Made by a program: the position numbers and the translations under genes. Shown in pieces: positions 29,072 through 64,000 of a stretch of 64,000 bases of DNA; positions within the stretch are counted from its first letter, which is position 1, and each line of letters begins with the position of its first letter. The notes beneath the pieces are model-generated. The model was not told where the DNA came from and did no database searches. It saw only the letters and a program-made list of their open reading frames with translations. The stretch is from assembly GCA_025435555.1 (NCBI GenBank), contig JAIWWG010000005.1, positions 837,539-901,538 of the forward strand. The letters are read 5' to 3'. Source of the DNA: Chytriomyces cf. hyalinus JEL632. Taxonomy: Eukaryota; Chytridiomycota; Chytridiomycetes; Chytridiales; Chytriomycetaceae.

Positions 29072-31328
29072 ATGGACGCCAGCAACCACAACAACATCGC
29101 AGCCAACTTCATCCACTTCCCAAATTACACCGAATGGTGCTCGCGGGAAGGGAACCAGCAGTCCACCCTGGAACAGTATCACGATGAACTGTACACCCAC
29201 GGCCTCCATCTCTCCAAGGACAATAAGGGGCCAGAAGACGCATTTGCTGTCTTTGAGTATCTGGCCAACAACGGCCATGCAGGAGGCATGAATGCCTACG
29301 GCATCAGTATCATAGAGGGCGATACACCAGGTGCGTCATCCCTGTTCATAGTCAAACTGATCTATTGATAGCCTGATTGATCCTCTCTTACACGCACACA
29401 CAGATGGATTCCGCGATCCTTCAGAAGGATACGCTTGGGTCGAGAAGTCCGCGAAACTTGGGTGCCCCAAAGGACAGCGCAATTTATCCGCGTACTTATC
29501 CGAAGGCATTGTTTGTAAACAGAATGGCGTTGAAGCGTTGCGGTGGGGATATGCGGCGATCGAGCAGGGCCATGTTGAGGCTTACAACCCGATTGGATGC
29601 ATGTATATGAATGGGCAGGGTGTGCCGAGAGACCTTGTCAAGGCTGCGGAAGTGTTTCAGCGCGGAGTGGATGCGGGCAGTGTCGACTGCATCAGTCGAT
29701 TGGGTCTTTTGTATCAGCAAGGCCGTGGTGTGTCTAAAGACGTTCCAAAAGCGATGGAACTCTTCGAAAAAGCAACTGGGCTTGGAGACATGATGGGATG
29801 CTATTACCTTGGCTGTCAGTACGCCGAAGGCGATGATGGCATTCAAAAAGACCTCTGCCAAGCATTCAAGTATTACGAACGCGCCGCTCAAGCGAATGTT
29901 GTCAGCGCAATACGGAACGTGGGTCACTGTTACGAAAACGGAAACGGTGTTCCTCAAAGCTACGAAATCTCACTGCAGTATTACACACGAGCTGCAAAGT
30001 ATGACGACTCTTGGACACTCTATCATCTCGGCAGTATTTACCAACACGGAACAGGCGTGCAACAAGATTACGCCAAAGCCCGTGAATACCTTGAACGCGC
30101 CGCAAAGCAAAAACACAAGGAAGCGATTTGTGCGCTTGGGTTTCTGCTAAGCGAAGGACTGGGAAGTACCAAGGATCCAGTTCGCGCAGCCGAGCTATAC
30201 CAACAATCTGCAGCGCTAGGTGATGGAATTGGTGCGTACAACTCGGGTGTAGTTTTCGAAAACGGTCAAGGTGTCCCTGCAGACCTTCTCATCGCGCTTG
30301 ATTACTATAAACAAGCGGTGCGATTGAAATGCGATCTGGCCAGACCATTACTACAGCCAACATCTTACCTCATGACTCTGCTGCACTCAGTCGGGACCAT
30401 GTGCCTGATGGGAGACAGGGGAAAGGAAGCGAAGGATCATTTCCAAGCTGCAGCACAACTTGGCCATGACAAGTCCATCGCTGAACTGTCCAAAATGTAT
30501 GCAGACGCGTTGTGGGGAAATGATGCCGTCACGTTTGATACCGACATGCGCTACTTTACGCCCCCTGAAATTCCCGACACAACACTTTCAATCCTGCCTG
30601 TCGAACTGATTACGCACATCTTCCAGTTTCTGCATCCGAAGCAATGTATTCAATTGCGATCCATCACGCACCGCATGTTGACCCTCATTGACAATGACTC
30701 GTTTGCGCGACACTTGTTTCAGTTTAACGCGCTCTTGCTCCCGTCGCGAGGAGAGCGGTCCGTGCATTGGTTCGACAAGATGCTGTTTCGCGGGCCGCAC
30801 GCCTTTCAAGTGGCGTTCGTGGAAACAGGCTTGAATGGAATACGAGAAATTGGTTCTCATGAATTGAAATACGTGTCGCAAACGGATCACAAGTTCAGCG
30901 AGTTTCCTGCCGCGTTCCTTCAGTGGACAAGTTTAACGAGTCTGCAGTTGAGTGGGGTTCAATTGACGGGTGCGATTCCCGAAAGCATCAAGTATTTAAG
31001 GAGTTTGAAGGAGGTGAACTTGTCGCGTAACAGGTGTGGGCTTTTTATATTCTTTACTTTATTCTTTGATCACGATTCTTACCATGCGCTTGGGACGCGT
31101 AGGTTCGACGGCACAGAGATTCCATCCGCGTCGATAATGCATTTGGACAGTTTAGAAGTGCTGCTGTTGAATGCGTGTGGGCTCATTGGTGAAGTTGGGT
31201 TGGAGTTTGCGGCGTTTCTGAAAACGCTAAAGTGGTACTCACTGCGCAAGAATAAGCTTAAGTTTGCTGGTTCAACCAAGTTCAAATGGGTTGGAAGAAA
31301 GTCCTTGGACAAAGCACAAGTAAGATAA
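29072..31328 (+). CDS. Sel1-repeat / F-box / LRR protein
   Basis: Three exons (29072-29330, 29404-31033, 31103-31328) give 704 aa in frame. Residues from about 40 to 430 are a run of about ten Sel1-like repeats (for example YNPIGCMYMNGQGVPRDLVK, then VFQRGVDAGS), 36-38 residues apart. An F-box follows (ILPVELITHIFQFLHPKQC), then leucine-rich repeats of the plant/fungal type (LTSLQLSGVQLTGAIPES, LKEVNLSRNR, LEVLLLNACGL). F-box proteins link substrates to the Skp1-Cul1 ubiquitin ligase; Sel1 and LRR parts would bind the target, so a substrate receptor is inferred. The stop lies just after a GTAAGA that could be a donor, so a further 3' exon is possible. Confidence 0.75.
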
Positions 31329-46385: not shown

Positions 46386-49300
46386 ATGAACGAATACCCC
46401 AAGCGCCATTACACGCCGACGGTCGTGTACACAGAGTGTGGCGGCGATGCTGTGCCGACCCCGACTCTGACTGTGCCTGGATCGGGCGATGGTTCGAATA
46501 CGGGCAGTGAATGCGGTTCCTCTGGAGGCGGCGATGGGAGTGGTGGTGGTGGTGGTGGTGGTGGTGGTTGGGATGACGGTTCCAGTGGCGGTGGCGGTTC
46601 AAGTGGAGGCGGAAGCGGCGGAGGAAGCGGTGGAAGCGGTGAAGGGGGCGGTGGAAGCGGTGAAGTGGGCGGTGGAAGCGGTGAAGGGGGCGGAGATGGA
46701 TCTGGCTCAGGAGGTGGCGGCACCGGCGACGGGACTGGTGGCGGCAATGGTGATGGTACTGGTGGAGGCACCGGTGGCGGTGGAGACGGTTCTGGGGGAG
46801 GAAACGCGTCTGGTTCCGGCGATGGCGGAAATGGTGGTGGTTCAAATGGAGGTGGAAGTGGAGGTGGCAATGATGGCTCGTCTGGAGGAAGTAGTGGCGG
46901 ATCCGGAGGTGGTGGAGAATCTGGGTCTGGTACTGGCTCTGGAAACGGTGGGTCTGGAGATGGAACTGGAGGCTCTGGAGGCTCTGGGGGTGGTTCTGGA
47001 GGCTCTGGAGGCTCCGATGGTACCGGCGGTGGTACCGGCGGTGCTGGTGGAGGAGGAGCCGGGGGAGGTAGTGGAACCGGGGGCGGTGGTGGAGGGGCAG
47101 GAGGGGGAACAGGAGGAACTGGTGGCAGTGGCGATGGAACAGGGGGGAATGGTGGAGGAGGAAACGGAGGGACTGGTGGAACTGGCACTGGTACTGGTGG
47201 TGGCGCAGGAGGCGGTGCCGGAGGATCTGGTGCAAACGGCGGTGTCAATTCGACCATCACATTTCCGACTGGCACTGGACCAACATCAACAACCAGTGCA
47301 ATCGTTGGAATCATCACAGCGACAACTTCTCCGATTCTTGTCAGTACATCGCGTGTTATTGTTCAAACCTGTATTTTTAATCTCATCTTTATTTTAGACA
47401 ATCGCAGCCGGGACTTCCGACGCGTCCAGCGCCTCATCCGGCACAATCAGCAAAACAGCCTTGATCATTATCATCATCGTCCTTCTCGCGCTCATCCTCC
47501 TCGCCATTCTATGCTGCATGTGCTGCTTCCGCCCTCACAAACAACCAGACGAAGAAACCCAATCCCCGCCGCAGGAGGCTCCACTGCACAGCACAACTCC
47601 TATGATGGGTGTTGTCATTCCTCCAAGTGATGATGAAGACGAAATCGTGGCAATTGGCGGTGCTGCCGCTGCAGCTGGCGGCGCTTACGCCAGCAGAGTC
47701 ACCACCACAACAACTACGAAATCGAATCGAATTTCAAATACATCTGCAGTTACTGACGGTGAGATTGTTGCGGGTCAAACGGAGCTTGGAAATGTATCGC
47801 CGACGCAGAGTTTGTATGGCGTGATTCATGATGATGGAGGCGCCGCGGGTACTGGTTCTGGTGGTGCAAATGGCGCCATGTATGGTTGGTTTTTCTGTCC
47901 GTTTAAGGGGTCGTGTGCGCTGTGTTAAATTGCGCATTTTTTTTAGCAGGTGGTGCTGCTGTCGCGGGTGCTGCAGTGGTGACCGGTGCTGCTGCTTCAA
48001 AGGATGAAGGAAAAAAGCGATGGTTTTCGAAAAGCGTGAAAACAAACGGCACAGAAACTGCGACTGTCGCGACGACAGGCGAACAGCGAGAAATGTCATA
48101 TGCGAACGTGTCGAATGAAGCAAATCACTCAAACACGGCTGCGATTGCAACAGCAGCCGCGATTGGTACTTTACATTGAACATTTTTTTTAATTCTCAAA
48201 TAGTTATTCTTATTTGCGAAACAAATTCTTAGGCGCTGTAGCCGTTGGAGCTGCAGCTGGTGAAGCCAAAAAGAAGCAGTTCTTCTCATTTTCGAAAGGT
48301 CAATCAACATCAGAACAAGAATCTGCGTCAATCTCAAACAACACGGTTGCGAACGTAACTGAATCGAATTCGGCGTCTAGTGCCATTGTGCAGCAATCGG
48401 ATGTGACTGTGTTGGCTGGCTCTGCGGCGGCGGCAGCTGGCGAGTTTATTTATTTTGATTAGTATGGCTATTCGCAAAATAACCATCTATATATCCTCGG
48501 AAAAGCGGGTGCAGCAATGATGACGGGCGCACTCGCATCAGAGGAAACCAAGAAAAAGCGTGTCGTCAAAATCACCAAAGGAACTGCAGGCGTCGAAGCA
48601 GGAGGAGCGGCTGCATATTCCACTGTTGTAACAACAGACAGAGGTTTATCCGACTCGGCCTTTGAATACAATGGAGCATCAGGAGCTTCACGCGTTGAAC
48701 ATTCCGAAAATGTTGTTGCCGGTGCCGCGATCGCAGGTTTTTTTCGGACTTTTGATTTCTTTGAAAAAGACTCTTTTGATTTCTCCTAATCATTTTGGTG
48801 TTTTTTTTTTTCTTTCAAAAAGCTGGTGCAGTCGCTGTTGCTGCTGGAGCTGTTGCAGTCAGTGAAGGCAAAAAAAAGCGGGTCGTTAAAATCACCAAAG
48901 AGTCTCCTACCGAGATTGCATCGAAACCTGTCGCAACGGAAAGTCACCAAACCAGTGTGGAAAGTCACCAAGAAAGTCAGCAGACAGGTAAAAACGAAAC
49001 GCGTTTATTTTACATAAAAGCAAATTGGGGGGTTTTAAAACAAGTTGTTTTTCAAAAGCAACCTCTATGCATGCCGAAGGTGTGATTGCCGCTTCTGCAG
49101 TTGCAGCTGCAGCTGCCTCGGGCACTGCGGTAACAACAGAAAAGAAGAAGCGCGTCGTGAAAGTCGAACGAGTCGCAAACTCAAAGGACAAACAGGAAGT
49201 CATTGAAGCAACCACGGTCGCAACAACAGCCGCAGCAGCAGAGACCGTCACTCAGACTAGCAACACAACAACCAAAATCACATCAGACACACCCATCATT

Positions 49301-50011
49301 GTCGCCGCAGCCTCTCAAACAAGTGAAATTGAGGCAATCGAAGCTGATCTAAAGAGCACGATTGACGCTGAAGTTGCCGACGCGATTATTGTTATTCAGC
49401 AACAAGAAGCAAAAGAGAAGCGTTCTTCGATAGTCACAAATTCATCCTTCAACTATGCAACGTATGTGCCGGCTCCTTCAAACACGCATGTTGTGGTTCG
49501 AGGGTTCCATGGAGTGCGGTCGGATGAATTGACGTTGGAGGTGGGCGATATTGTCGGAATCGATAAAATGTACGCTGATGGATGGGCATTGGGGAAAATC
49601 AGTTGAGTCCAAAAAGTACAGTTTTCGACAAAAGAAGTGTTCATCTAACAACCCCACACAGTCTCCAACAAGAGCAAAATCGGGGTCTTCCCAATCACAG
49701 TCCTAACCCGCCAAAAACACGGCGCCTCACAATCAGTCGGACACAGTGAAACAGGACACACATACTTTATGCCCAAGAAACGCCACTCAAACAGCAGTAA
49801 CGCGTCCATTGAGCAATTGTATGCACATCAAGTACCTGAACGTGGTGCAAGTATGGTTGAAGTGGAAAGCAGTACCATCCGTGTCAAAGTGCAGCGGGAC
49901 CAAGACGCGTATGCCACGCGCATGGATTTCCGGGAGAACCGAAACCGGTGGGAAAGACAGTCTGCTGGAGCTTCAACGGCAGCAAGTTCTTCGCTTTCTG
50001 AGAAGAAGTAG
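46386..50011 (+). CDS. Fus1-like single-pass membrane protein 1: Gly-rich, repeat modules, SH3
   Basis: Eight exons (46386-47339, 47398-47884, 47950-48165, 48233-48439, 48506-48736, 48823-48987, 49080-49601, 49662-50011) join in frame to 1,043 aa. Residues about 33-295 are almost pure Gly with Ser, Thr and Asp. One membrane span lies at about 339-362 (ALIIIIIVLLALILLAI), followed by CCMCCF, a likely palmitoylation site. The cytosolic part carries five Ala/Gly-rich modules, each followed by a basic motif such as KKKRVVKITK. An SH3 domain spans about 888-945 (THVVVRGFHG, LEVGDIVGI, DGWALGK, IGVFPITVL). The tail has PKKRHSNSSNASIEQLYAHQ. After the first intron all introns are phase 1; intron 4 has a GC donor. 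No classical signal peptide is seen. A cell-surface sensor or scaffold role is inferred. Confidence 0.7.
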
Positions 50012-50276
50012 TTTTTTGGAAATCTTTTTTGACACTGGCCAGACGTGGTCAAAGGGGTGAAACTTACTTTTTTTTTGTGGGAAATTATTGCTTTCCTTTT
50101 TTTTTTTTCTTTTTCTGCTTACCCCCCCACCCTCCTCATCTATGTTTACTGTTGCCTCATCCAGAAACACCTCATTAAAACAAAGAAATATGTGCGTTCG
50201 CTGTCGTGTTGTATGACACTTGTTGCCAGTTGTTGATGGCTGTTGCACTGTCTCTTTCACTCCCATCCAGCAACTG

Positions 50277-50321
<45 letters not shown>

Positions 50322-50553
50322 GGCTCCAGATCATCCTTCTCGGACGCACCACACAAAAAAACGCGTCGTCTTTTACTTTTTGTCCACTTTTTATTTTGTG
50401 AGATTAAAAATAAAGATTTCCCTTTTCATTTCCAAGGTTTTAACGTAAATATATTTTTGTAATTTTTTGTCTTGTCCCCAATTAACGACAACGAACGAAG
50501 CCGCATCAGACACCACATTCACAACAACAACACACACACAAGCGAAATCACAC
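50012..50553. other. Spacer between the two SH3 membrane-protein genes
   Basis: The spacer is T-rich downstream of the first gene, contains a (TC)19 microsatellite at 50281-50318, and then an AT-rich part with TAAATATATTTTTG about 100 nt before the second start codon. No gene is seen. Confidence 0.45.
50281..50318. repeat. (TC)19 microsatellite
   Basis: Nineteen uninterrupted TC units lie in the promoter region of the second SH3 membrane protein. Confidence 0.85.
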
Positions 50554-53500
50554 ATGTCGTACATAGTCCCGACTCCTCCTGCGAACGGAGGCGGCTATGT
50601 GGCCCCGACACCCGTGTATAGCGCTCCTGTCTATGTCCCGCCTGTTGTCTATGTACCCCCTGTCACCTATGGATCTGGATCTGGCGGTGGCAGCGGCGGT
50701 GGTAGCGGCGGTAGTGGCGGAGGAAGCAGCGGAGGCGGTGGCGGTGGCAATGGAGGGAGCGGAGGAGGAAATGGGGGAAACAGCGGCGGCAACAACGGTG
50801 GTAACAACGGTGGAGGGAGCACCGGAGGCGGCAGTGGAGGAGGCAGTGGAGGCGGTGGCAATGGTGGAAGCAATGGAGGGGGCAGCGGAGGAGGGAATGG
50901 AGGCGGCAATGGTGGTGGTAACAACGGGGGAGGGGGGTCCAATGGTGGAGGCAATGGCGGTTCAAACGGCGGAAGCGGTGGTGGATCCAATGGAGGAGGC
51001 AATGGTGGAGGCAGTGGAGGAAGCGGTGGTGGTGGCAATGGTGGAGGAAACGGCGGATCTGGATCTGGATCCGGCGGAGGCAACGGAGGAAGTGGTGACA
51101 ATGGCGGCGGTGAAGGCAGTGGCGGCAACGGTGGGAATGGCGGTGGAAACGGTGGAAACGGCGGCGGTGCAGGTGGAAGTGCAACTGGAACGGTGACAGC
51201 TTCCACAAACATGACTGTCTCAGGCACCATTTCCTCCACCATCTCCAGATCCACATTAACATCCACCAACGTTAGCAAACTTATTGGTCTCGTCACTATC
51301 AAACGAACTCAAAACTCATCTCTTCAATTCAAAAACAGACTTCAGCTGCCACTGGTGTAGTGGTCTCACCCCCTGTCGACTCGAACGCTATCGGAACCCC
51401 AGCAATTATTCTCATTACAATCGGAATCATTGCCTTGATCGCATTCGCGGCCCTCGGATTTGTCTGGCACCGAAGAAGAAGTGCTCAAGAGTCCGAAAAC
51501 TTGCCCTACCATTCTGGAGCAGCTGGTGGACCAGCAATGGGCGCAATTGCGACTCCTGTGCCTGCCGCGAAACAGGAAGAAGGATACTATGGACCTATCA
51601 TTGCTGGTGCTGCAGGGGCAGCAGTAATCGGAGGGGCAGCAACCTCGGGCGGAGCCAGCCGAATTACGACCACCACAACAACAAAAACCACGACAACAGC
51701 ATCGTCAACGTCGTTTGTTGCTGGTGAGCACAGCGAGGGACATGTCCTGTCTGAACACCAAATGGGCAACGTCGGAGCAGCCAATGCCATGACAGGCGTG
51801 GTGGGTCACGATGACGCGCTTCTTGCTGGTGCTGCCGGTGCCGCTGTTCTTGGAGGTGAGAAAGAGTGTTTATACTTTTTTAACCTTATTTACTAACCTG
51901 GAATACAAACAAAAAAAGGCGCCGCACTTGCTTCCGCCGAAAAGAAAAGAAGGGTCGTCAAAGTCACTCGCGACAACGAACAGTCTGCGGCGTATGGTGC
52001 TGCGGCATACGGTGCTGGTGCCGGCGCTGGCGCTGCCGTTGCTGGTCGCTCGTCAAACGAGGCCCTCCACTCTGGTGCTGCTGGTACTGCGGGCGTAGCT
52101 GGTCGCTCGTCGAACGAGGGTCTTTACGCTGGTGCCGCCATTGGTGAGTATTATCGTTGTTGCGTGTCTCTTCTCACTCCGGAACTGATGCCAGAAATTT
52201 TTTTCAAGTGGGTGCTGCTGCTGTTGTCGGTGCAGGAGCGGCTTCTGCCTCTGAGAAGAAAAAGCGCGTCGTAAAGATTACCCGTGGTGAAGGTAACAAA
52301 TTTCTGCAATGCCAAAACTTGGTTTTTTTGGGCTGGCTTTTTTTTTGTTAATGCGTCACCTCAGGCGAAGCTGCATACTCTTCCACCGCCTCTGCTGGAG
52401 AAGGAGGTTACGCTGTCGGCGCTGCAGGAGGAAGTGCTTATGCCGCCAGCAATATCACTGAAAACACGTACGCTGCATCGAAAACCTACGAAACCAACAC
52501 ATATGATGCTGCGTATGGTTCAACTGAAGCTACTGATGCTAGTCGTATCCATGTGGCGGAAGGACACTCCGGCTTCTGTAAGTCTTCCAAGATAAAAATT
52601 GTTCGACAGATTTTGAAAATGACTTTTGTGTTCATTTCGTACCAGCTGATGCCGCTGTAATTGCTGGTGCCGCAGTTGCAGGAGCTGCTGTCGTCGGAGC
52701 TGCCGCATCCACCGAAAAGAAGAAGCGCGTATTCCGTGCCCAAAAAGTCGCCAAAGAACAGCCAAACGATGAACTGGTATCCCTCATTTCTCTGAACGCT
52801 GCTGCCGCCGAAACCGAAGCTCGAAGATCCGTCATGAGTGGCACTGAGTCTGAAGCTCGGCAGTCAACCATCATGTCCGAAAAATCGCGTTTCTCCAATG
52901 TGAGCGTCGTTGAATCGACCATGGTGAACCAAAACGATCAATTTGATGAGATTGATGAGATGGAGGAGATGGATAATGAAAAGAGAAGGACTCTGATTGC
53001 CGGTGAGGTTGCCGCAGCTGTCGCTCTGATTGCCGCGCAGGATCAGCAGACTACCATCAGTTCATCGAATCGCAAAGACACGATCAAATACTTTGTAAAT
53101 GTTGATGTGCCCAACTTGAGTGCATATGTGCCACCACCAACAAACACCCATGTTGTTGTCCGTGGATTCCACTCAACAAAGTACGATGAAGTGTCCCTGG
53201 AAGTGGGCGATATTGTTGCCATTGAGCGCACGTTTGAAGACGGATGGGCGCGTGGTCAAATCAGTGAGTTGGCCTTTTCATGAACCCCATTTCTTCCCGC
53301 GATTGATCACTAATCAACTGCATGAAACACAGTCTCAAGAAGACACAAGCGCGGTTACTTCCCAATCACTGTCTTGACACGGCAAAAGCTGGGCGCGTCC
53401 CAATCTGTTGCGCACGATGAATCCGGAGCGTCGTACTTCCTCCCAAAGAAGAGAAACTCGAACGGAAGCACAGCGTCCACTGAGCAGTTGTATCCTCACC

Positions 53501-53604
53501 AGATTCCAGAGCGTAGCACAAGTATCGTTGAAGTTGAAATCACTCGGGTAGCAAGTGAGAAGGTTGGCGTGCAGGAACTTAGAAACCGATGGGAGCGCAA
53601 ATAG
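50554..53604 (+). CDS. Fus1-like single-pass membrane protein 2: Gly-rich, repeat modules, SH3
   Basis: Seven exons (50554-51270, 51339-51855, 51919-52143, 52209-52292, 52365-52577, 52646-53263, 53333-53604) give 881 aa. After a Pro/Val/Tyr-rich start (MSYIVPTPPANGGGYV) come about 170 residues of Gly/Asn/Ser. A membrane span lies near 260-283 (AIILITIGIIALIAFAALG) before HRRRS. Cytosolic modules include ASAEKKRRVVKVTR, ASEKKKRVVKITRG and STEKKKRVFRAQK, with two RSSNE...Y/H-GAA copies in exon 3. The SH3 domain is at about 753-808, and the tail PKKRNSNGSTASTEQLYPHQ matches its neighbour. As in paralogue 1, the first intron is phase 0 and the rest phase 1. I took ATG 50554; the frame is open upstream but without an ATG. 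Confidence 0.7.
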
Positions 53605-59451: not shown

Positions 59452-59785
59452 TGATAGCTTATTCCACTACATGACTAAATTTATTCTTGCTCTGATTAAG
59501 CATAAACATGGTTGGAAAGCAAATATATGGAATTAATATGATTCTGGTATAGCTGTTAAGGATTGTGACCACAGACCTGCAGGTCACTGGTGCAACCCAC
59601 ACTGCTGCCAACTTCATGCAGCTATCTTTTGATCATTATAGGGAAATAAGCAGAAGAAGAGGAAATAGAAATCAACTTAGACAAGTATACTATTACCACT
59701 TTTGTATGACTAATCTGTCAAGCCAGTCAAGCAATTAATCAATAACCTTATCCACTGTGGGGATATTGACTATAATTGACAAGCC
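59452..59785. repeat. Left long inverted repeat
   Basis: Begins TGATAGCTTATTC and ends ATAATTGACAAGCC. Its reverse complement matches the right arm along its whole length, with roughly one difference per ten bases by eye. It contains a tRNA-like segment. Confidence 0.8.
59545..59598 (+). other. tRNA-like segment with A and B box matches (left arm)
   Basis: TGGTATAGCTGTTAAGG at 59545-59561 resembles the pol III A box (TRGYNNARNGG), and GGTGCAACCC at 59589-59598 resembles the B box (GGTTCGANTCC) at tRNA-like spacing. A full cloverleaf is not formed, so this is a degenerate tRNA-derived sequence, perhaps a SINE head. Confidence 0.4.
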
Positions 59786-60887
59786 TTTGCATTGACATCC
59801 AGGACGGCAGTGATCCCTGGCCAAGTGGACTCCTGTTTCTGGAAAATGAGTATGGTGGTGGGCACAGCCGCAACTGAGAACAGGGTTACAGCTGTTCTCA
59901 TCTCTTTGTTTTTACATTTCTGTTGCTTGAATATATTTTAGCTTTTTGCGTATGAATACACTTTAGCTTATTATGTATGTGGGGAGCAATTTATTTCCTG
60001 ACTTGAGGAAAAAAGACTAGTAACAAGGATCAATCCCCGTACCTCTGCTTGCCAATTCAAGTGTGGAACTGCTATTCTTCATATATTTGAAACTGTTGCA
60101 ATGCTTCCCTTTTTTTTTTTTTTTCGAAAACACTGCATCATCATGTGATAAAACCTTGATGAGCAAGTAACAGAACTGGACAGAAATGAAGATCTACAGC
60201 ACCACCCCTTCCACCTGACTGTAATCTCTCCAGCAAGGATAATCATCCAATCCAGCTCTGCACGGCTGTTACTCTTGCCCAAGAACTTGCATGCCACCAT
60301 GCCAAATCAAGTCCATCACTTTCATCATTCCCAGCAGTCACATTCCCAGTCACATTCCCAACAGTCACATTATGCCTATATTGCCCAATCTGTCTGGTAA
60401 CGTTCCAAGAGCTTATCACTCATACTGCTTGTGTTATCAAACCAGGCTGTGTCCTGACCAGTGAGAACAATGCTGTTTAATTACCTTTGCAATGACACGT
60501 AAGCTTTCGGAAAAAAAGCAAGAATTCAAAATCTAACTAACAGAGTCATGACAGGATACACCTGAAGCCAGCAGAAGAAATGCTGGCTCAGATGATGTTG
60601 GGATTTGGCTTATGGGCTGATAAGTATTTATTATCTTAAGAGACTGTTTCAAGTACGAAAATTTAAAGAGATCAAAAAACAAGGAGATGGAAGAAATTCT
60701 CTGATTGGCCGACGAAAGCACGTCATCGCTTTAAATTCTGACCCCAAAAAAAGAGCTCTTGCAGCTTTGTTTTTCTGATTTCATCGTTTTAAAAAATAAA
60801 AGAGCAAACGACACCGCTGGTAAGCATTGGTTTAACGCACGTTGCATCCCCAGAACTCACCTCTTTGTGGCCTATGAGCAGTCTCAA
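59786..60887. other. Element 5' region of the transposase
   Basis: This is non-coding sequence inside the element. It has a T16 run at about 60109-60124. The transposase frame is open back to 60759, but its first ATG is at 60888, so an upstream exon is possible. Confidence 0.4.
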
Positions 60888-62099
60888 ATGAATCTGCTCA
60901 ATTTGGCAGCAATAACCATCGCCTCCGTTGTCGCTGGTGCAGTGATGCAAACTGCAGCCGCCGTGGCAACGCTTGATGGCCGCGCAATACGGGCTGATCG
61001 CAAGCGTAAGAGATCCTCTCGAATTGGGCAATGGCAGGCGCTAAAAAACGACGTCGAATACAGTTCCCTGTGGTACAAGGGAAAGTTTCGCTGCGAACGA
61101 CGAACCTTCCGGGCATTGCTGCGCCTTATCGGATCAGAATGGTTGCATGTTCATCAGCCACTTCACTGGAATGCGCATTTTTCAATCGAAGATCGCTTGG
61201 CTGTCACCCTGCACTACATTGCACACCCTGGAACGCTCGACGAGTCTGCTGCATTTGTGGGGATGAGCAAGAGTTCAGCCAGTCGATACATATGGCAGGT
61301 TGTTGCAGTCATCAACACTCGGCTGAAACCCATGTTCGTATGGCTCCCTCAGACGCCGCAAGAATGGGAACAATGCAGAATCGGAATGTCCGGCCGTGCA
61401 GGATTTCCAAATGCATACCTTGCCATTGATGGGTCCCTGTTCGAAATTGAGCGGCCGTATGAATTCGAGGGCTACTACTGCCGGCACTTTTATCCCGCAT
61501 TGAACGCGCAGATTGTCATTGACGCAAACATGATTATTCGCGATTTTGACATCCGACCAGGCTCTCAAAACGACAAGCAAATATTCAGGTCTTCCCGTTT
61601 TGGCAAAAACATCCACCGCTGGCTTCCCAAGTATGGCCACATCGTTGGTGATGCTGGCTACACGTTCTATTCACATGTCATGATCCCGTATGACATCCAT
61701 GAAGGCATGACAGACGAGCAATCAAACTACAATTATATACATTCGAAAACGCGAATCTGTGTCGAAAATGCGATTGGTTTGGTAAAGGGAAGATTTCGAC
61801 AATTGAAACGCGTCATGGATCAAAAACCTCATTATGAGGGAGAAGGCAGTGATGAGGAGGTGCTTGTGGATGCTCCAGTTCTGATGAGTCGTCTCATTCA
61901 GTCAAGTTTTGTTCTTCACAATATTTTTACTTTTTTAATAGACAACACTGATTTATCAGGGGGAGAGGATGATGGGGAAAGTGTTGACAGTGATGAGGAA
62001 ACTGGTGCAGATGCTGATTCAGAGGGTGTGGGCAGAGAGGCTGGTCCGCGGGCAAAAGTGAAACGTGATCATATTGCAGAGCTTTTGTGGATTGGATAA
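60888..62099 (+). CDS. PIF/Harbinger transposase (DDE_Tnp_4 type)
   Basis: A single frame of 403 aa from the first ATG. A hydrophobic-looking start is followed by a basic stretch (RADRKRKRSSR) and a helix-turn-helix region (LAVTLHYIAHPGTLDESAAF, MSKSSASRYIWQV). The nuclease core shows the three acidic residues: D181 in YLAIDGS, D255 in HIVGDAGY and E293 in ICVENAIGLVKGRFRQLKR, a DD37E spacing typical of Harbinger. A supporting GSQND lies between them. The C-terminus is acidic. The enzyme cuts and pastes the element with help from the Myb-like protein, and usually targets TWA trinucleotides. All catalytic residues are present, so it may be active. Confidence 0.85.
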   Translation: MNLLNLAAITIASVVAGAVMQTAAAVATLDGRAIRADRKRKRSSRIGQWQALKNDVEYSSLWYKGKFRCERRTFRALLRLIGSEWLHVHQPLHWNAHFSIEDRLAVTLHYIAHPGTLDESAAFVGMSKSSASRYIWQVVAVINTRLKPMFVWLPQTPQEWEQCRIGMSGRAGFPNAYLAIDGSLFEIERPYEFEGYYCRHFYPALNAQIVIDANMIIRDFDIRPGSQNDKQIFRSSRFGKNIHRWLPKYGHIVGDAGYTFYSHVMIPYDIHEGMTDEQSNYNYIHSKTRICVENAIGLVKGRFRQLKRVMDQKPHYEGEGSDEEVLVDAPVLMSRLIQSSFVLHNIFTFLIDNTDLSGGEDDGESVDSDEETGADADSEGVGREAGPRAKVKRDHIAELLWIG

Positions 62100-62167: not shown

Positions 62168-63319
62168 TTACTGTTGCTTGGAGCTGTTACCAACGCTCAG
62201 AAGGAAATTTTCAAGTAATTGCAACACACGCGCATTGCTGTCAGCAACTGATTTTAAGTGCTTTGTGGTTTCCTGTTGGCCGTCAGCAATTGTTTTCATG
62301 TGCTTTGAACTTTCTTGTTGGCCATCAGCAATCGTTTTCAATTGCTTTGAATTTTCTTCGTTACTGACAGCTTGTTGGCTAATGAGAGATTCCACATTCT
62401 TGAAGTGAGGATTGGACTGGTTGTTTCCAGCAATGGCTTTTGCCAGTTCGCTTATACCATCACCAACTCTGCTTCCCATGTTTTCAAGGGCACCAGCAAT
62501 GTCAGGCTTCACGCGTTTCGGTTTTGGCTCTGGTTTCGCAGATTTCGAATCGGACTGCTTTGATGCCCCCACTGGAGGTAGGCCAAAGGATTCTCGTGTC
62601 AGATTGTCAGCTTCTTCCTTCTCTGTCAATTTCTGTCTCTTGACTGGTGTTTTTGTATCCCCAACAGAGTCAGTGTCGGAGTCAATGTCTGCAAGGCTGC
62701 CTGATGAGGATACAGTGGAGCTTGAAGACCTAGCAACACAACTCTTGGAATCCGACAAGAATGATTGAAACTTGGCCTGTGCGTCTGATTGTGACATGGT
62801 AGCTCCGTCCTCTGTGTCCCCAAGAGTCTCGCCGATCAGCCCTGACTTGTTCCCGAAGTAGAGCACCATAGATTCAAAGCACTCGGGCTTCTTGGTCCTT
62901 TTCTCGTTGTTGCCAGTCTCCCCTTCCTCAGCCTTCAGCTTGCTCCAGAGGGTTTTCAGGGCCATAACCTTGCCCTTACACTGTTCCACAGTGTATTCAA
63001 CATCCATGTGAACGCTAAGACTCATTTGGACTTTCTTCCAGCCTTTTGCAGCTGCCTCCTTGCTCTTTGCATCCAGGAAATCACTGCGGAACGTATCGTA
63101 CCGGTAGCGCAGCAATGCATCAACTTGGCTTGCAGTCCAACTGGCTGGTTGAGCTGGCGCTGAACCATCAGTACCAGATGCTGCATTCTTTGGGGGACGG
63201 CCTCGCTTTTTCAGTGGAATTGGCCCTGGTTTCGCCTGGGTGACGTCTGTAGGAGTTGTGGAGGTGCTGCTGGAACCTTTGGCTGGAGCAATCTTCACCA
63301 GAGTGGGAGTTGAGAGCAT
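62168..63319 (-). CDS. Harbinger-associated Myb/SANT-like DNA-binding protein
   Basis: A single frame of 383 aa. An AT-hook-like KKRGRPPKN lies near residue 37, followed by a trihelix (Myb/SANT-like) domain with tryptophans at regular spacing: SWTASQVDALLRYRYD, AAKGWKKVQMSLS, VMALKTLWSKLKAEE. A Ser/Asp-rich linker and a basic patch (PKPKRVKPD) precede a C-terminal coiled coil containing three copies of K-(T/S)-(I/V)-ADGQQ-like heptads. In Harbinger elements this second protein takes the transposase into the nucleus and binds the element's ends. The gene converges on the transposase with 68 bases between stops. Confidence 0.75.
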   Translation of the reverse strand: MLSTPTLVKIAPAKGSSSTSTTPTDVTQAKPGPIPLKKRGRPPKNAASGTDGSAPAQPASWTASQVDALLRYRYDTFRSDFLDAKSKEAAAKGWKKVQMSLSVHMDVEYTVEQCKGKVMALKTLWSKLKAEEGETGNNEKRTKKPECFESMVLYFGNKSGLIGETLGDTEDGATMSQSDAQAKFQSFLSDSKSCVARSSSSTVSSSGSLADIDSDTDSVGDTKTPVKRQKLTEKEEADNLTRESFGLPPVGASKQSDSKSAKPEPKPKRVKPDIAGALENMGSRVGDGISELAKAIAGNNQSNPHFKNVESLISQQAVSNEENSKQLKTIADGQQESSKHMKTIADGQQETTKHLKSVADSNARVLQLLENFLLSVGNSSKQQ

Positions 63320-63667
63320 CGCTTTTCTTTTGGTACTTGAAATGAAAAGAAGAATGGGAATTTAATTTTCAAATCTTTATTTTGGCATTTGCGTACTTGA
63401 AACAGTACTTAAGGTGAATCACAACACATCAAAAACAGCTCTCCTTATATACATTTTTGGCTCCCATAAAATCTCATTGGGCTTTCTTCAGTTTCACTTT
63501 TGAGCTACCCTTTTTTTCATTTCATTTGTCATTTCATTTCTACAAATGAGATTTGATGTGAAATCATCCATTTTTCATTTGCAGTTTGAAATTGCTGAAA
63601 AAGTGAGTCAGTGCTGACAATTCAGTTTTTCAAGCTGATTAGTCATTCATTACTGGCTAACAGTTAA

Positions 63668-64000
63668 GGCTTGTCAATTATAATTAATATCCCCACACTG
63701 GGTAAGGTTATTGATTAATTGCTTGACTGGCTTGACATATTAGTCATACAAAAGTAGCAATAGAATACTTTTCCAAGTTGATTTCTATTTCTTCTTCTTC
63801 TGCTTATTTCTCTATAAAGATCAGAAGATAGCTGCATGAAGTTGGCAGCAGTGTAGGTTGAACCAGTGACCTGTGGGTCTTTGGTCGCGAACCTTAACAA
63901 CTAAGCCAGAATCATATGAATTCCAAACAAGTACTTTCAACCATGTTTATGCTTGATCAGAGCAAGAATAGTTGAAATCATGTAGTAGAATAAGCTATCA
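63668..64000. repeat. Right long inverted repeat (cut by window end)
   Basis: The reverse complement of the left arm, ending AAGCTATCA at the last base. It contains the better-preserved tRNA-like segment. Confidence 0.8.
63855..63908 (-). other. tRNA-like segment with A and B box matches (right arm)
   Basis: On the minus strand TGGCTTAGTTGTTAAGG (63908-63892) is a close A-box match and GGTTCAACCT (63864-63855) a good B-box match, 27 bases apart. The anticodon arm could pair GACC with GGTC, but the loop is too long, so it is a tRNA relic rather than a working tRNA gene. Confidence 0.45.

Follow-up and report, generated by a model that had tools for sequence, protein, structure and literature searches.

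Two tandem chytrid genes for putative single-span membrane proteins with a repeated Ala/Gly-basic tail and a divergent SH3 domain

Fus1 of yeast and of Talaromyces marneffei combines an N-terminal region, one membrane span and a C-terminal SH3 domain, and its ectodomain is short and glycosylated. The protein is described as a plasma-membrane scaffold (PMC10315666); the SH3 domain of yeast Fus1 is reported to carry Cys at positions 37 and 54 and to have peptide targets that lack PxxP (PMC5823434), with R[ST][ST]SL given as the ligand consensus (PMC4160167). The osmosensor Sho1 is also a fungal membrane protein with an SH3 domain, for which four spans are reported (PMC4411306). The 64,000 nucleotides of DNA analyzed here (the window) come from the chytrid Chytriomyces cf. 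hyalinus JEL632 (GenBank assembly GCA_025435555.1, contig JAIWWG010000005.1, positions 837,539 to 901,538 of the forward strand) and contain two adjacent genes whose predicted products share the part order of Fus1. They differ from Sho1 in having one strong span by hydropathy, and from Fus1 in having a long Gly-rich N-terminal region, a tail of repeated Ala/Gly-KKKRVVK units and two genes in tandem. No description of this architecture or of the repeat was found in the open-licence literature, among the matches listed.

Our preferred reading, to which we give a probability of roughly 0.45, is that each gene encodes a Fus1-like single-span membrane scaffold with a non-PxxP SH3 domain and a multivalent basic tail, the pair having arisen by an ancient tandem duplication. 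The two neighbors would then be membrane adaptors whose Gly-rich N-terminal part faces outside as a flexible stalk, and whose repeated KKKRVVK-type motifs tether the tail at several points to the anionic inner leaflet or to a shared partner, so that copy number would set avidity. Most aromatic residues of the PxxP-binding surface are missing from the SH3 domain, which would most likely recruit a partner through a non-PxxP motif, as that of Fus1 does, and the whole would serve as a polarity or signaling scaffold. The uniform phase-1 introns would be mostly a by-product of Gly and Ala codons at proto-splice sites, while still allowing frame-neutral loss or gain of exons.

The gene models and their exon boundaries are predicted from the DNA letters alone. 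Rebuilt from the raw sequence, gene 1 occupies 46386-50011 (+ strand; 8 exons, 1050 residues) and gene 2 occupies 50554-53604 (+ strand; 7 exons, 881 residues), in agreement with the coordinates and part order given by an earlier reading of this DNA (the original prediction). That prediction is partly confirmed: the observation is real and needs corrections. The parts of the two genes are:

46386..47339, +: gene 1 exon 1, Gly-rich N-terminal region, 318 residues, 52% Gly, with a Ser/Thr-rich end
47398..47884, +: gene 1 exon 2, span, CCMCC cluster, acidic patch, Ala/Gly and RVTTTTTTK segment
47461..47517, +: gene 1 membrane span, residues 340-358 (Kyte-Doolittle mean 3.73; octanol sum -16.1)
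47950..48165, +: gene 1 exon 3 (1-1), KKRWFSK at 48012 (motif and profile tests)
48233..48439, +: gene 1 exon 4 (1-1), KKKQFFSFSK at 48268, GC-AG intron next (motif and profile tests)
48506..48736, +: gene 1 exon 5 (1-1), KKKRVVKITK at 48550 (motif and profile tests)
48823..48987, +: gene 1 exon 6 (1-1), KKKRVVKITK at 48870 (motif and profile tests)
49059..49601, +: gene 1 exon 7 (1-1), unit KKKRVVKVER at 49142, linker, first part of the SH3 domain from about 49505 (Pfam match)
49662..50011, +: gene 1 exon 8, end of the SH3 domain (to about 49702), conserved tail with PKKRHSNSS, stop (Pfam match)
50554..51270, +: gene 2 exon 1, Pro/Val/Tyr-rich start (VYVPPVVYVPPV) and Gly-rich region, 239 residues, 50% Gly
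51339..51855, +: gene 2 exon 2, span, HRRR, Ala/Gly and RITTTTTTK segment, and the first half of unit 1
51405..51467, +: gene 2 membrane span, residues 262-282 (Kyte-Doolittle mean 2.85; octanol sum -10.8)
51919..52143, +: gene 2 exon 3 (1-1), KKRRVVKVTR at 51942 (motif and profile tests)
52209..52292, +: gene 2 exon 4 (1-1, 84 nt), KKKRVVKITR at 52256 (motif and profile tests)
52365..52577, +: gene 2 exon 5 (1-1), Ala/Gly/Tyr/Thr-rich linker, no basic motif
52646..53263, +: gene 2 exon 6 (1-1), unit KKKRVFRAQK at 52717, acidic linker, first part of the SH3 domain from about 53167 (Pfam match)
53333..53604, +: gene 2 exon 7, end of the SH3 domain (to about 53373), conserved tail with PKKRNSNGS, stop (Pfam match)

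Retention of 8 of the 13 introns would shift the frame, their lengths not being multiples of 3, and the remaining 5 contain an in-frame stop that ends the open reading frame; all 13 are therefore required to be spliced. Splice sites are GT-AG in 12 introns. The exception is gene 1 intron 4 (48440-48505, 66 nt), a GC-AG intron with the donor CTG/GCGAGT (the slash marks the junction), and since it carries an in-frame stop its splicing is needed by the gene model. Gene 1 intron 2 has a tandem acceptor, TTTAGCAG/G (47941-47952), where splicing to the first AG would insert one extra residue and keep the frame.

Similarity identifies the C-terminal domain of both predicted proteins as a divergent SH3 domain. 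The Pfam matches are SH3_9 (E 4.6e-05) and SH3_1 (E 0.0012) in gene 1, and SH3_1 (E 6.4e-04) and SH3_9 (E 0.0016) in gene 2. When 90 residues of the gene 2 product, covering the SH3 domain and part of the tail, were searched against PDB with phmmer, 33 sequences matched at E 0.01 or better. The top match was p47phox (5.6e-08, summed over two SH3 domains) and the best single-domain match DOCK1 (2.4e-06), and the same two proteins (DOCK1, 4.2e-06; p47phox, 1.1e-05) lead the best 60 of 75 matches to a two-sequence profile. The likeness to p47phox and DOCK is confined to the SH3 domain, and nothing else alike was found. Between them, the two proteins are 62% identical over the SH3 domain and tail, and the PKKR-S-N-S tail that had been predicted to follow the SH3 domain is present in both (PKKRHSNSS and PKKRNSNGS).

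The surface of the domain departs from the canonical one. With positions placed by hand on the phmmer alignment and numbered as in PMC5823434, surface positions 8, 10, 37 and 54 are R, F, A and V in both genes, so that three of the four are non-aromatic, and the key Trp36 is kept. Ala 37 is the residue after this Trp, and Val 54 occupies the last aromatic slot of the FPxxY stretch. Compared by published positions, 37 and 54 are the same positions that are altered in yeast Fus1 (PMC5823434), a parallel that supports a possible Fus1-like choice of peptide, and not Fus1 membership.

The two genes could also be true Fus1 orthologs that act in mating or cell fusion, with the SH3 domain recruiting the fusion machinery at the contact site. 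Besides the shared part order and the departure from the canonical surface where Fus1 departs from it, gene 2 carries RSTSI at residue 852, near the reported R[ST][ST]SL consensus (PMC4160167); the exact consensus, however, is in neither protein, and the corresponding site of gene 1 reads RGASM. The best PDB matches being p47phox and DOCK, with no sequence link to Fus1, orthology seems quite unlikely to us; no Fus1 chain occurs among the 33 phmmer matches or the best 60 of the 75 profile matches, and a literature search joining Fus1 with chytrid and SH3, or with Batrachochytrium, found no paper. The Fus1-like plan of the original prediction is borne out in its part order, and the two altered SH3 positions add to the resemblance.

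The Gly-rich exon 1 is common to both proteins (52% Gly in gene 1, 50% in gene 2). Exon 2 contributes a single strong span per protein, as had been predicted, with 19-residue Kyte-Doolittle means of 3.73 (gene 1) and 2.85 (gene 2) and octanol sums of -16.1 and -10.8; the spans are assigned by these hydropathy scales. The octanol scan also favors, more weakly, residues 302-320 of gene 1 (-2.6) and the Pro/Val/Tyr-rich residues 21-39 of gene 2 (-4.2); neither is counted as a span. Directly after the span come CCMCC in gene 1 and HRRR in gene 2, and by the positive-inside rule this basic flank suggests that the C-terminal part is cytosolic.

The tail between the span and the SH3 domain contains a repeated unit, an Ala/Gly/Val segment of about 20 residues followed by a basic-hydrophobic KKKRVVK-type motif. 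There are five units in gene 1 (residues 502, 565, 637, 715 and 782) and three in gene 2 (residues 420, 503 and 610). The original prediction gave five versus four modules, each ending in a basic motif. This count holds for the module exons (gene 1 exons 3-7, gene 2 exons 3-6) but not for the basic motifs, which number five versus three, gene 2 exon 5 being without one; and the motif does not end the module exon but lies 8-28 residues past the intron, close to the start of its own exon.

The likeness among the eight units exceeds what composition would give. In a leave-one-out profile test all eight outscored 500 of 500 whole-unit shuffles, and when the Ala/Gly and basic halves were shuffled separately seven of the eight beat all 500, the unit at gene 1 residue 565 beating 499. 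The likeness also carries over between the genes: all three gene 2 units beat 600 shuffles with a profile trained on gene 1 only, and four of the five gene 1 units beat 1000 shuffles with a profile trained on gene 2 only. The Ala/Gly and R-[VI]-TTTTTTK segments of exon 2 were tried as extra units and rejected, their scores (-4.6 and 4.5 bits) being inside the null range (top 11.0). Comparison of the five core copies of the basic motif (KKRWFSK, KKKQFFSFSK and KKKRVFR left out) counts, pooled over pairs, 20 changes at codon position 1, 14 at position 2 and 51 at position 3 in 100 codon comparisons whose pairs are not independent, and the motif looks to be held by selection. Profile searches gave no convincing Pfam family for the repeat and no family in NCBIfam, a prokaryote library, which agrees with the earlier statement that the module is not recognizable as a described domain. 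Weak Pfam rows on or near it (DEDD_Tnp_IS110 0.14, DUF2613 0.0035, UTRA 0.019 and others) are below cut-offs and were set aside as low-complexity noise.

The Ala/Gly segments might also be further membrane or re-entrant helices of a multi-pass protein in which the KKKR motifs act as interfacial anchors. On the Kyte-Doolittle scale the eight units average 1.4-2.2 over 19 residues, which speaks for this, and a low-confidence helix covers one Ala/Gly segment (residues 2-11) in an AlphaFold2 model. The octanol sums, however, are +4.1 to +6.5 for the eight segments against -16.1 and -10.8 for the two spans, and make it unlikely that the segments span the membrane; we regard a multi-pass protein as improbable.

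What the basic motifs bind may also be read in two other ways. RxxK is a non-PxxP SH3 ligand class, and an RxxK begins inside six of the eight basic motifs, so that the KKKRVVK repeats could be the SH3 domain's own ligands: with several candidate ligands and one SH3 domain on the same chain, the tail would fold back or cross-link neighbors and be self-regulating. RxxK is absent, however, from two of the five gene 1 units (KKRWFSK and KKKQFFSFSK), and this candidate has in our view a low likelihood. Alternatively, the motifs could be nuclear localization signals that act after proteolytic release of the tail. Six of the eight units fit K[KR]x[KR], but the Pfam search gave neither a match above cut-off nor a DNA-binding domain in the two proteins, and each basic motif is paired with a conserved Ala/Gly segment that a localization signal does not need; this is very unlikely.

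Both copies are old and under constraint. The SH3 domain and tail, aligned over 115 codons, have a non-synonymous divergence (dN) of 0.23 and a synonymous divergence (dS) of 2.23 (NG86, saturated), giving a dN/dS of about 0.10, with 27 changes at codon position 1, 21 at position 2 and 62 at position 3. The unit number has apparently changed since the duplication. The original prediction had also proposed an expanding family, which is not supported: there are two copies with saturated synonymous divergence, and tblastn with the cytosolic parts gave no further copy in the window, where matches beyond the two genes have E 0.97 or more. Relatives of the SH3 domain and tail were also looked for in viral and prokaryote contig collections, which say little about this question; of 58 plus 189 pattern matches, none was confirmed by tblastn.

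The introns follow a simple rule, as the original prediction had noted. Intron 1, directly before the span-bearing exon, is phase 0 in both genes, and every intron after it, six in gene 1 and five in gene 2, is phase 1, so that each of the nine middle exons between the span exon and the last exon (gene 1 exons 3-7, gene 2 exons 3-6) is of class 1-1. An ordinary fungal baseline, reported for Fusarium verticillioides, is 215:172:147 for phases 0:1:2 (PMC5677156); under it six of six phase-1 introns would have a chance of about 0.001, a baseline that ignores composition. Because Gly and Ala codons begin with G, phase 1 is enriched at G-ended proto-splice-like sites, with a share of 52-69% in gene 1 and 59-74% in gene 2 over six classes of site counted from exon 2 to the SH3 intron. 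The composition-aware chance is about 0.02-0.11 for the six of gene 1 and about 0.07-0.22 for the five of gene 2, the two genes not being independent. The same compositional argument is reported for Gly-rich linkers in animals (PMC8001218). Since phase 1 already makes up 52-74% of proto-splice-like sites, the uniform phase is weak evidence for shuffling, and the phase-1 run would largely be expected from Gly/Ala-rich coding sequence. A G precedes the intron at 8 of the 11 phase-1 junctions; the other three, both SH3 introns (TCA/TCT) and gene 2 intron 5 (TCT/CTG), lack it and are therefore left unexplained by composition.

Exon shuffling is treated in PMC8001218 as animal-restricted, and the tail could have been built, as in animal mosaic proteins, by exon duplication through intronic recombination of class 1-1 modules. 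All nine middle exons are indeed of this class and flanked by phase-1 introns on both sides, as are the shuffled modules described there, and their number differs between the gene copies; in three of the eight units (gene 1 exons 3 and 7, gene 2 exon 6) the intron lies at or just before the start of the Ala/Gly segment, and the proto-splice argument misses 3 of the 11 phase-1 introns. In the other five units (gene 1 exons 4, 5 and 6, gene 2 exons 3 and 4), however, the intron falls inside the Ala/Gly segment, as judged by eye on the exon peptides, so that exon boundaries do not match module boundaries as they would in exon-shuffled modules, and the distance from intron to motif varies. The same kind of intron splits the SH3 domain itself in both genes, and much of the phase bias is already predicted by composition. 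Similarity between introns was considered as proof of duplication and rejected: 2 of 78 intron pairs reach the shuffle floor of 1/201, which is not consistent, and is unconvincing in T-rich introns. Unlike the animal class 1-1 modules of PMC8001218, the repeat is thus cut by most of its introns, is not recognized as a folded domain, and has a phase bias expected from composition. We consider exon duplication of this kind somewhat unlikely. The description of the middle exons as 1-1 units that can be duplicated or lost without a change of frame is formally right; the introns, however, mostly fall within the repeat, and much of the phase bias may come from composition.

Several results weigh against the reading of the proteins as single-span scaffolds with an SH3 domain and a repeated cytosolic tail. 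All four SH3 scores are below the Pfam gathering cut-offs (23.6 and 18.7 against 30; 18.8 and 19.7 against 22.9), and the SH3 domains of p47phox are weak matches singly (i-Evalues 0.16 and 0.015). With the gene 2-trained profile, the unit at residue 565 of gene 1 reaches 20.4 bits, short of the null maximum of 22.4. The structure prediction of module plus SH3 domain that the original prediction had called for, run with AlphaFold2 on gene 2 exon 6 and gene 1 exon 7 (two sequences, SH3 domain incomplete), gave no usable model, the mean predicted local distance difference test score being 37.5. The topology is read from flanking charge alone. No signal peptide is apparent by eye at either N-terminus (no predictor was run), and passage of 240-320 residues across the membrane would therefore need a reverse signal-anchor. 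Also, of the 14 N-glycosylation sequons of gene 1 and the 6 of gene 2, 12 and 4 lie past the span, so that sequon positions lend the proposed topology no support.

A broader claim would be that these are lineage-specific single-span surface scaffolds in which an undescribed, copy-variable Ala/Gly/Val and KKKRVVK tail works as a multivalent zipper to membrane or partner, coupled to a non-PxxP SH3 domain, with units gained and lost through frame-neutral phase-1 exons outside animals. We regard this combination as rather unlikely. If true, it would give single-span SH3 scaffolds a new cytosolic repeat and provide a test case, outside animals, for change of repeat number in an intracellular tail through symmetrical exons. 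A caution also follows, that codon composition readily yields runs of phase-1 introns in Gly/Ala-rich proteins.

Other features of the window include a CT microsatellite of 19.5 units (50280-50318) between the two genes, upstream of gene 2, and an open reading frame matching ribosomal protein L13 (54330-54542, E 6.4e-08) just downstream of gene 2. A single open reading frame at 29361-31328 contains Sel1 repeats in 8 stretches (E 1.6e-57). It also has an F-box that scores narrowly above its cut-off (0.00036) and, more weakly, leucine-rich matches. Long inverted repeats at 59452-59787 and 63666-64000, in blocks of 273 and 66 nt that are 89% and 88% complementary, enclose a DDE_Tnp_4 open reading frame (60735-62099, + strand, E 1.4e-25) and a Myb/SANT-like open reading frame (62168-63361, - strand, E 1.3e-05, just below cut-off). 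We take this pair, with its inverted repeats, to be probably a two-gene PIF/Harbinger-type transposon, the right end of which may lie beyond the window.

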